Part shown: positions 28,526-31,929 of the stretch, in pieces
Layout of the letters: each line of letters begins with the position of its first letter
Numbering within the stretch: position 1 is the stretch's first letter
Source: Bacteroidia bacterium
Lineage (GTDB): Bacteria; Bacteroidota; Bacteroidia; AKYH767-A; OLB10
Reading direction: 5' to 3'
Length of the DNA: 37,849 nucleotides
NCBI GenBank assembly: GCA_020847635.1
Contig: JADLBQ010000022.1
Span: forward strand, 1-37,849
Notes under the pieces: model-generated
What the model was told of the DNA's origin: nothing
The model's input: the letters and a program-made list of their open reading frames with translations, nothing else
Database searches by the model: none
Made by a program: the position numbers and the translations under genes

Positions 28526-30574
28526 ATGCTTTTTAACTATCCGGCTTTTCTGTGGGCACTTACTTTTCTGGCAGTTCCGGTTATTATTCATCTTTTCAAT
28601 TTCAGAAGATTTAAAAAGGTCATGTTTACTAATGTGAGATTCCTGAAAGAAATTACAGAAGAAACAACCTCAAGAAGTAAACTCCGCCATTGGTTGGTAC
28701 TGTTATGCAGGTTACTCGCTGTTTCCGCTTTGGTTTTTGCTTTTGCCCAGCCTTACATCCCTGTAAAGAATCAGGTTACTGTATCAGGCGATCAGATTAT
28801 TTCAGTTTATATTGATAATTCATTCAGTATGGAGGCTAATGGCAAGAAAGGGGCCTTATCGGATGAAGCCAAAAATGCTGCAAAAGAGATTGTGAACGCA
28901 TTTAAGCCCTCAGATCGTTTTCAGATTCTGACAAATGATTTTGAAGCAAGGCATCAAAGGCTTGTTAACAGAGAAGAGGCTTTGTCGCAGGTGGATGAAA
29001 TAAAGACTTCGGCTTCAGTACGAACTCTTTCAGAAGTTGTAAAACGCCAGGGACAGGCTGCATCCGGGAATGCAGTTTATGTTAATTCCTACCTGATAAG
29101 TGATATGCAGAAATGGCAGTCTGATATTTCTCAGATGAATCCTGATTCGAATTTTCATATCTTTCTAATCCCACTAGATGCTGAATCTTCTTCCAATCTT
29201 TATATTGATACCTGTAAACTAAGCTCACCTTATTTACTGGCCAGAAAGCCGGTTGAGCTAACAGCAGTAATCCGTAATTTTTCAGATGAACCGGTTGAGC
29301 AGCTTTCGATTAAACTCACAATTAACGGAATTCAGAAGGCTGTCACTAATATTAATCTAGATGCACAGGCTGCGGCTGAAACACAACTTTCATTTACTTC
29401 ATCAGAATCTGGAATTTTAAAAGGTGAGATTTCAATTGCAGATTATCCGGTAACTTTTGATGACAAATGGTATTTTACAATCAAGATGACGGACCATATC
29501 TCTGTATTATCACTCACCGGAAAAGGTTCAAACCGTTATATCCGTTCCGTGTTCGATGCTGACCCGCTTTTCAGTCTTAATGTGCAGTCCGCTTCACAAG
29601 CTGATTATGGCTCCTTCAGTCAGTTTCAGACTATTGTAGTCAGTGATCTTACAGAACTGACAACAGGCCTGTCAAACGAACTGGAAAAATACATTAATGC
29701 AGGTGGGACACTCATACTGTTCCCTGATACAACAATCAATTCGGAAAGCTATAATTACTTTTTCGGGAAAGTAACTGCTGACCTGTTTGACCAGCCGGTC
29801 GAAGGTGAATTCCAGGCCGATCGGATCAACTATGAGAGTGATGTGATGAATGGAATTTTTGATCTGAAGCAGCACCAGGATAAGAATATTGATTTTCCGG
29901 CAGTAAGAAAATATTTCCGGCAAACTACTCATAGCAGATCTTCAAAAGAGCCGATTATTTCACTGCAAAACGGTAACAGCTTCTTGTCAAAGTATAAATA
30001 TGGTAAAGGGCAGATATACATTTTTAGTCAGGCGGCTGCGTTGGCAGCAGGCAACTTGGTCAATCATGCCTTGTTTGCTCCGGTCATGTACAGGATGACA
30101 ATGAGTTCGGCAGTTACCAATCCTGTTCAATACGTAATTGGCCATGAGTCCGGTTATGTGTTTAAATCGCCTGAGCAGGCCGGAGACCTGGTTTGTACGC
30201 TTTCAAATGATGAACTAGGGGTTGAAGTGATTCCACCTGTTAAGGTTATTGCAGGCATAGCTGAACTCAATCTTACAGGAATAATCCATGCAGATGGAAT
30301 TTATACGCTTAAAAACGGAGACAAGCTGATGGATGCCCTCGCTTTCAATTACGACAGAAGAGAATCGGAGTTAAGCTACCTGGGCAAAGATGGACTTAAT
30401 AGTGAAATTTTAAAAAGCGGACTCAGGAATATCTCAATTATTCCATCCACTCCGGCTGGCTATACCAGATCAGTCATATTACAGAATCATGGAATAGCAC
30501 TATGGAAATGGTTCTTAATCACAGCTTTAATATTTTTAGCAGCTGAAATTCTGCTGCTTCGGTTCTTCAAATAA
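28526..30574 (+). CDS. BatA-like protein with N-terminal double-transmembrane region and VWA-like domain
   Basis: This is a 682-residue membrane protein. The N-terminus (FLWALTFLAVPVIIHLFNFRR, then a helix around WLVLLCRLLAVSALVFAFA) is the double-transmembrane BatA-type domain found almost exclusively in Bacteroidota. A von Willebrand factor A-like domain follows, with metal-site motif DNSFS (about residues 92-96, DxSxS). The long middle section is beta-rich with Ig- and GATase1-like stretches (for example YINAGGTLILFPDT). A C-terminal helix (WKWFLITALIFLAAEILLL) anchors the end. The family is linked to the Bat aerotolerance operon, but this copy has no MoxR, BatB or BatC neighbours, so it is probably one of the stand-alone paralogues of unknown role. 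Confidence 0.9.
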   Translation: MLFNYPAFLWALTFLAVPVIIHLFNFRRFKKVMFTNVRFLKEITEETTSRSKLRHWLVLLCRLLAVSALVFAFAQPYIPVKNQVTVSGDQIISVYIDNSFSMEANGKKGALSDEAKNAAKEIVNAFKPSDRFQILTNDFEARHQRLVNREEALSQVDEIKTSASVRTLSEVVKRQGQAASGNAVYVNSYLISDMQKWQSDISQMNPDSNFHIFLIPLDAESSSNLYIDTCKLSSPYLLARKPVELTAVIRNFSDEPVEQLSIKLTINGIQKAVTNINLDAQAAAETQLSFTSSESGILKGEISIADYPVTFDDKWYFTIKMTDHISVLSLTGKGSNRYIRSVFDADPLFSLNVQSASQADYGSFSQFQTIVVSDLTELTTGLSNELEKYINAGGTLILFPDTTINSESYNYFFGKVTADLFDQPVEGEFQADRINYESDVMNGIFDLKQHQDKNIDFPAVRKYFRQTTHSRSSKEPIISLQNGNSFLSKYKYGKGQIYIFSQAAALAAGNLVNHALFAPVMYRMTMSSAVTNPVQYVIGHESGYVFKSPEQAGDLVCTLSNDELGVEVIPPVKVIAGIAELNLTGIIHADGIYTLKNGDKLMDALAFNYDRRESELSYLGKDGLNSEILKSGLRNISIIPSTPAGYTRSVILQNHGIALWKWFLITALIFLAAEILLLRFFK

Positions 30575-30636: not shown

Positions 30637-31929
30637 TTGAATCTGCTCATTAAATCGGTACACCTTGTTGACAACAGAAGCCCTCTGAATGGTAAGCAAT
30701 GTGATATTCATATCAGCCAGGGAATCATCCGCAAAATTGCTTTAGCAATCCGGCCGGAATCATGCGGAAAGGATTTGACAATAGTCAGGAGAAAAGGTTT
30801 GCATGTCAGTATTGGATGGTTTGATCTAGGTGCAAACTTTTGTGATCCGGGATTCGAATATAAAGAGGATATCCTGTCGGGAATTGAGGCTGCTATTGCT
30901 GGCGGATATACAGGAGTGATGTTGTTACCAAATACAGTTCCGGTCATTCAGAATAAGGAGGGAATTGAATATATCAGAAATAAGAGCCGGAATAATCTGG
31001 TAGAAGTATTTCCTGCCGGAGCACTTACAGCTGATTGCCAGGGAAAGGAACTTACCGAATATTTTGATATGAAATCTGCCGGTGCAGTTGCCTTTACTGA
31101 CGGGAAACATACAATTGCAGATTCCGGATCAATGCTTAGGGCATTACAATATGCACAAAATTGTAACTCACCGGTTATTGTCCATGCTGATGACAAATGC
31201 CTATCAGGCAAACTGTTGATGAATGAAAGTGAGAACAGTGTCCTTTTTGGCATAAAAGGTTCACCCGGTATTGCTGAAGAAGTAATGGTTCAGCGTGATA
31301 TCCGCTTAGCACACTATGCCGATTCCCGAATTCATTTTCTGGCATTGTCATCCGCAGGAAGTGTTGAACTAATCAGAAAAGCTAAAAAGCATTTTGATAA
31401 AATTACTGCCGGAGTAACTGCCTATCAGATTTGTTTTGATGACAGCTGCTTAAGCAGTTATAATACCAATTTTAAACTCAATCCCCCATTGCGAACTAAG
31501 GCAGATATTGCGGAGCTGATCAAGGGCCTGGCCGATGATACAATTGATGTCATAATAAGTGATCATACTCCTGAAGACATTGAATCAAAACAAGTAGAAT
31601 TTGAACTTGCCCGTTATGGAATGATTGGTTTGGAAACTGCATTTGCAGCAGTCAATACAGTAGCAGGAAAAAAGCTTGGGCTTGAGAAACTGGTTGAAAA
31701 AATTTCGATTGCTCCCCGTAAAGTTTTAGGACTGGTGGTCCCTGAGATTAAGGAAGGGGAAAATGCTAACCTGACTTTGTTTGACCCCAATGAAAAATGG
31801 ACATTCACAAGGGATGAAATCCATTCCAGGTCAGCTAATACTCCGTTTTTCAACACCGAGTTTACCGGAAGGGTTGCCGGTGTTGTGCTGAATAAGAACT
31901 TTACCTGGATTAGTAAGTCAGTTGCCTGA
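30637..31929 (+). CDS. Dihydroorotase homologue lacking the metal ligands (likely non-catalytic)
   Basis: This 430-residue amidohydrolase-fold protein aligns throughout with type I dihydroorotase, the enzyme of the third step of pyrimidine synthesis, but its metal site is gone. The DLHVHLRDPG segment reads DLGANFCDPG (residues 63-72), so both ligand His are Gly and Asn. VTPHHL reads VTAYQI, HICHVST reads HFLALSS, and TDHAPH reads SDHTPE, where only the Asp survives. The rest of the scaffold (GFEYKED, GGYTGVMLLPNT, RYGMIGLETAF) is well conserved, so the gene is under selection and not decaying. There is no in-frame ATG for 90 codons. The TTG at 30637 (MNLLIKSVHLVD) gives a normal N-terminus. 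A structural role, such as partner of aspartate transcarbamoylase like PyrC' of Pseudomonas, or a new role is possible. Confidence 0.9.
   Translation: MNLLIKSVHLVDNRSPLNGKQCDIHISQGIIRKIALAIRPESCGKDLTIVRRKGLHVSIGWFDLGANFCDPGFEYKEDILSGIEAAIAGGYTGVMLLPNTVPVIQNKEGIEYIRNKSRNNLVEVFPAGALTADCQGKELTEYFDMKSAGAVAFTDGKHTIADSGSMLRALQYAQNCNSPVIVHADDKCLSGKLLMNESENSVLFGIKGSPGIAEEVMVQRDIRLAHYADSRIHFLALSSAGSVELIRKAKKHFDKITAGVTAYQICFDDSCLSSYNTNFKLNPPLRTKADIAELIKGLADDTIDVIISDHTPEDIESKQVEFELARYGMIGLETAFAAVNTVAGKKLGLEKLVEKISIAPRKVLGLVVPEIKEGENANLTLFDPNEKWTFTRDEIHSRSANTPFFNTEFTGRVAGVVLNKNFTWISKSVA

Follow-up and report, generated by a model that had tools for sequence, protein, structure and literature searches.

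The window analyzed here, a stretch of 37,849 nucleotides from a Bacteroidia draft genome, contains on its forward strand a gene (30637..31929, +) for a 430-residue homolog of dihydroorotase (DHO). The frame is open throughout, running from a TTG start that aligns with ATG in the orthologs to a stop codon at 31927-31929, and we refer to its product as a pseudo-dihydroorotase (pDHO). On the same strand, 62 bp upstream, lies a gene for a BatA-like membrane protein (28526..30574, +; PF07584, 81 bits; TIGR02226), which is a conserved upstream neighbor of the pDHO gene. Homology of the window protein to type-I DHOs extends over its full length. In a profile search, it scores 304 bits against TIGR00857 (pyrC_multi), for which the cut-off is 279, and its closest sequence match among solved structures is the Aquifex DHO (E 2e-70). 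The top VIA structural match of an AlphaFold2 model of the protein (pLDDT 93.6) is the same enzyme in its complex with aspartate transcarbamoylase (ATCase; 4bjh; Z 57.1, rmsd 1.8 Å over 418 residues), with which the Thermus DHO ties (2z00; Z 56.6). The lowest-confidence part of the model, residues 190-210, lies near the equivalent of a loop that, in the Aquifex DHO, becomes ordered upon ATCase binding (PMC3880350).

We read the active-site residues by alignment against the Aquifex DHO, taking ligand roles from the published work on that enzyme. Its α site, formed by His61, His63, and Asp153, binds the single zinc ion needed for catalysis, and its β-site ligands are His180 and His232 (PMC3880350). 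In the window protein, the α-zinc HxH motif is replaced by Gly65-Ala66-Asn67 (GAN; 30829..30837, +), the third α ligand, Asp153, by Gly156 (31102..31104, +), and the β-site His232 by Ala236 (31342..31344, +). The equivalents of two other residues are retained, namely His180 as His183 within a VHADD motif (31183..31185, +) and Asp305 as Asp309 within an SDH motif (31561..31563, +), and the substrate-pocket residue His309 is replaced by Glu313 (31573..31575, +). The segment that reads VNPNHL in the Aquifex DHO reads VTAYQI here. A catalytic PyrC would be expected to carry an HxH motif together with an aspartate or carboxylysine, and at these positions the window protein has GAN and Gly156 instead. 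With all three α ligands and His232 replaced, it is predicted to be catalytically dead and, as judged from its sequence, is a type-I DHO fold with the catalytic zinc site destroyed.

The original prediction held that every metal-binding histidine had been replaced. Set against the Aquifex enzyme, this is accurate for the change of HxH to GAN, for the histidine of HICHVS, and for VTAYQI, and inaccurate in that the His180 and Asp305 equivalents are kept. It also counted the histidine of TDHAPH as a lost ligand; that residue has indeed become a glutamate, but it corresponds to His309, which belongs to the substrate pocket and is not a listed zinc ligand. Conversely, it overlooked the replacement of Asp153, the change that completes the loss of the α site. 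The observation of a lost metal site is thus real, if slightly overstated, and the destruction of the catalytic zinc site stands. One could still suppose that the protein remains a dihydroorotase with another metal arrangement, given that its scaffold is fully conserved and that the Aquifex DHO tolerates removal of both His180 and His232 (PMC3880350). We regard this as extremely unlikely, however, as His61, His63, and Asp153 are all gone and the same genome encodes a separate, full-length DHO, described below.

Comparison of 31 non-redundant intact DHOs with 87 dead ones identified the columns that are invariant in the former and relaxed in the latter: His61, His63, Arg65, Met93, Asn95, Asp153, Gly154, His180, Glu182, His232, Ala307, and His309. 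In the dead set, the His61 column holds Arg, Gln, Lys, Phe, Asn, and His, and also Gly; the His63 column Asn, His, Ser, Asp, Arg, and Ala; and the His309 column Gln, Glu, His, and Leu. Mean column entropy barely differs between the sets (1.65 for intact and 1.79 for dead DHOs), and about 50 scaffold positions are conserved at more than 85% in both. Because the relaxed columns coincide almost exactly with the active site while entropy has hardly changed, the pattern goes beyond chance, and this conservation profile indicates that the pDHO gene is kept for shape rather than chemistry. It also bears on the suggestion, made in the original prediction, that the protein has acquired a new activity, either metal-free or with a differently coordinated metal. 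Amidohydrolases can be repurposed, and Asp309 and His310 of the SDH motif are retained throughout a 15-member alignment, with Asp309 present in 74% of a wider set. Nearly all other active-site side-chain positions are highly variable, however, and no replacement set of catalytic residues is conserved, which leaves the suggestion without support and makes a new activity very improbable.

The dead form extends far beyond the window genome. Sixty of 61 relatives have a match, and most of these encode a type-III DHO, more distantly related, in addition to a pDHO; a type-I DHO homolog is found at E below 1e-60 in 250 of the 296 sampled genomes of the window's class; since these positives include at least one intact DHO (in genome G130), we speak of about 250 genomes with a pDHO. 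Among roughly 100 class members read at the ligand positions, the zinc site is lost in all but an acquired pair in one genus. A further 20 of 20 class members are likewise dead, and 18 of 18 further DHOs from phylum members outside the class are intact. The frame is uninterrupted in nearly all class genomes, and dN/dS is 0.04-0.08 in the closest pairs with a median of 0.09 among 14 congeneric genomes, so that the gene is under strong purifying selection (dN/dS about 0.05-0.09). The open frame, low dN/dS, and class-wide presence rule out a decayed gene, and the loss of the zinc site across class relatives rules out a chance substitution in a single genome. The description of the protein as a maintained pseudo-enzyme was therefore correct. 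Its expected GAN/YQ clade was borne out as a conserved clade, but not in its residues: those at the former zinc site differ between class members. In families f79 (g186), f90, and f22 and in genome G058, the pDHO is extremely diverged, at ~23-27% identity; f79 g186 and f90 had appeared to lack the protein, a view that we rejected when very diverged pDHOs were found. The gene is evolving fast in f79 (g186), f90, and f22 (loci L190, L194, L198, L196, and L265). We found no description of this class-wide pDHO family in the literature searched, which comprised open-license papers.

The window genome, a 2.58-Mb draft that is 99.8% complete, encodes a full-length type-III DHO on contig 86 (24793-26028), which scores 717 bits against PRK09236 (cut-off 535). 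The original prediction depended on the presence of a second DHO in the genome, and one is indeed encoded there; this protein, the sole candidate catalytic DHO that we found, is probably active. Its HxH motif reads QVH, which may signify an unusual metal site; the glutamine is common to several class relatives, and PyrI-bearing relatives have HVH. About 16 kb from the type-III DHO gene, on the same contig, is a stand-alone pyrR-pyrB pair, the PyrB of which scores above its cut-offs. No PyrI was found in the window genome. The pyrB gene on contig 86 and the pDHO gene on contig 22 are unlinked, which we counted against the proposal, also contained in the original prediction, that the pDHO pairs with ATCase.

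A partner of ATCase would be expected to disappear from genomes in which the ATCase has been lost or is differently partnered. In phylogenetic trees, PyrB sequences from pDHO-bearing genomes form one clade (support 99/99 and 100/100 in two trees), which we term native. Counting the very diverged pDHOs, 20 of the 22 sampled genomes with a native-clade PyrB have a pDHO. By comparison, PyrI is encoded by 15 of the 296 genomes, distributed over seven families, and none of these 15 has a pDHO, versus about 250 of the 281 genomes without PyrI (Fisher 8e-14, not corrected for relatedness, many of the co-losses coming from related genomes). The PyrB that accompanies PyrI is of a foreign lineage (AU p 0.0002). 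A foreign PyrB is also present in G412 (AU p 0.0004), in which no pDHO is found within the 307 nt that follow BatA before the contig ends. The Hymenobacter-like genome G130 at first looked like an exception, a pDHO with an odd PyrB; we rejected this reading, since its DHO is intact and lies beside pyrB, and its BatA operon is without a pDHO. The DHO of this pair shares 95% identity with a DHO carried by a Hymenobacter canadensis plasmid. Three genomes (G224, G368, and G399) have no PyrB, no recognizable type-III DHO, and no pDHO, and have kept BatA. The pDHO is thus inherited and lost together with native PyrB, and in this respect the proposed pairing with ATCase gained indirect support.

Some genomes fit less well. 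Two with a native PyrB are without a pDHO. In G520, BatA lies at a contig edge, so that the absence is not informative; the draft of G036 lacks both BatA and pDHO, and we counted this genome against a partnership with ATCase. A remaining misfit is G058, whose fragmented draft of 230 contigs yielded a very diverged pDHO but no PyrB. Families f27 and f97 have no pDHO and a long-branched PyrB outside the native clade; these PyrB proteins are compatible with being diverged native ones (AU p 0.41 and 0.35, respectively), in which case a native-type PyrB may manage without a pDHO.

The same distribution can be used to ask whether the pDHO acts elsewhere in the pyrimidine pathway, with another partner or as a regulator that binds the type-III DHO or a nucleotide. 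Its disappearance with the whole pathway in G224, G368, and G399 would fit any pyrimidine role, and the type-III DHO is likewise widespread in the class. PyrI-bearing genomes retain the type-III DHO, yet have no pDHO, which indicates that the pDHO disappears according to the type of PyrB present and not with the pathway as such; we consider such a role unlikely.

Our DHO trees covered the pDHOs of the class, intact DHOs, and a single Planctomyces pseudo-DHO; a branch with 100/100 support splits all intact forms from all class pDHOs. This clean split suggests a single loss, with the zinc site disappearing once in the class. The intact relatives are commonly tied to pyrB: in 10 of 10 fetched pairs, the DHO gene is directly behind pyrB (gaps of 2-59 bp in nine and 193 bp in one), as it is in most of the named outgroup DHO loci, which come from Ignavibacteria, Marinimicrobia, Zixibacteria, Omnitrophota, and others. 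The native PyrB clade adjoins the PyrB proteins of pyrB-pyrC operons. Long open frames surround the DHO in G131 and G193, in both of which the zinc ligands are intact. In a record titled Planctomyces sp. (L149:5856-7119), a DHO directly behind pyrB has several ligands replaced (HSGHTDF); this pseudo-DHO is separate and probably of independent origin.

Taken with the co-inheritance and with the structural match to the Aquifex DHO of the ATCase complex, these relationships favor, at a probability that we put at about 0.73, a pDHO that acts as an obligate, non-catalytic partner of PyrB, working like the class A2 pseudo-DHO of Pseudomonas. In the ancestor, the DHO gene would have followed pyrB immediately, and the two proteins would have formed a dodecamer of two ATCase trimers and three DHO dimers. 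In the line leading to the window's class, a type-III DHO of the PRK09236 kind may then have taken over catalysis, after which the zinc site of the old type-I DHO would have been lost and its gene relocated to a position beside that for the BatA-like protein. The pDHO would have kept the structural role of type-I DHOs, binding to the catalytic PyrB trimer, and would have persisted because the assembly, stability, or activity of native PyrB requires it.

The gene neighborhood raises another possibility, that the pDHO serves an envelope function with the BatA-like protein, together with DUF4199 proteins and glycosyltransferases, and is unrelated to pyrimidines. The adjacency is old and tight: in 30 of 42 class pDHO loci, the immediately preceding gene, in the same orientation, is a BatA homolog, often overlapping the pDHO gene or only a few bases from it, and DUF4199 and glycosyltransferase genes are often downstream. 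The two genes nevertheless part company in both directions. BatA is present and the pDHO lost in six genomes (G446, G545, G224, G368, G424, and G130); those of the six that were checked for PyrB have all lost or replaced it. Conversely, G149 (family f26) has a pDHO without a close BatA homolog. In G446, which encodes PyrI, the pDHO gene is gone from between BatA and DUF4199-GT2, an order present elsewhere, and BatA is now directly adjacent to genes similar to that DUF4199-glycosyltransferase pair. We accordingly rejected BatA, rather than PyrB, as the main co-inheritance link and consider a purely envelope-related function improbable; the adjacency of the two genes probably reflects shared expression or history. 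No better odds attach to a pDHO with two partners, one that would be an obligate ATCase assembly subunit and also, through the BatA-DUF4199-glycosyltransferase operon, link pyrimidine synthesis to envelope construction. The BatA-like protein is itself widespread in the class, in an operon with the pDHO, DUF4199, and glycosyltransferase genes, and a 12.5-kb "plasmid" of Rufibacter tibetensis (L304, NZ_CP012645.1), possibly an assembly artefact, consists largely of a pDHO-DUF4199-DUF4199-glycosyltransferase operon.

Reading the pDHO as an ATCase partner places it alongside several known systems. The closest match in both sequence and structure is the Aquifex aeolicus DHO-ATC "reactor" (class A1; 3d6n, 4bjh), in which three DHO dimers connect two ATCase trimers; the Aquifex DHO binds zinc and is active, in contrast to the window protein, which is without an α site. 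The class A2 pDHO of Pseudomonas (PyrC') is also a type-I DHO homolog; its zinc ligands no longer work, and catalysis falls to a separate DHO encoded in the same genome (PMC7053772), a position that in the window genome is taken by the PRK09236 match, with its predicted activity. In P. aeruginosa, the ATCase chain is an inactive monomer on its own and needs its dead DHO chain, a 1:1 mixture of the two yielding an active 457-kDa complex (PMC7053772). By analogy, the pDHO studied here would be a non-catalytic ATCase subunit. The Pseudomonas gene lies beside pyrB, however, whereas that of the window genome is not directly downstream of pyrB and sits in a BatA operon on another contig; the native pyrB is paired with pyrR, the probable catalytic enzyme is a type-III DHO, and the dead form occurs across a whole class. 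With pyrB linkage absent, and with a 6:6 dodecamer with ATCase and common descent with the Pseudomonas form both putative, we do not file the window protein as a class A2 member. The pseudo-DHO domain of fungal CAD-like URA2 is similarly a dead DHO kept with an active ATCase, but it is covalently fused, whereas the pDHO is a separate protein and a putative subunit. PyrI, the regulatory subunit of class B ATCases, occupies the bridging role proposed for the pDHO and is mutually exclusive with it in the class sample; it is far smaller (about 150 residues) and not a DHO homolog.

With about 250 of the 296 sampled genomes carrying a pDHO, a partnership with PyrB would make the ATCase of most of the class a two-component enzyme, the second component being a catalytically dead protein whose gene lies elsewhere in the genome, and PyrB might then seem inactive when expressed or assayed by itself. 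Natural experiments are also available within the class, namely replacement by PyrI, acquisition of a pyrB-pyrC operon, and loss of the pathway, in which the dead subunit vanishes with its putative partner, and the class is thus well suited to studying why dead enzymes persist. Two Hymenobacter plasmids (L305, NZ_CP114768.1, and L306, NZ_CP095065.1) carry pyrB and an intact type-I DHO near purine genes, with purE in one and a carboxyaminoimidazole ribonucleotide synthase gene in both, and a near-identical copy of this pyrB-DHO pair is present in G130. Proteins of the pDHO family usually bear the name "dihydroorotase," as does the dead DHO of Rufibacter tibetensis (motif SFGRQGW), and such annotations make it easy to credit the wrong gene with the third step of the pyrimidine pathway.
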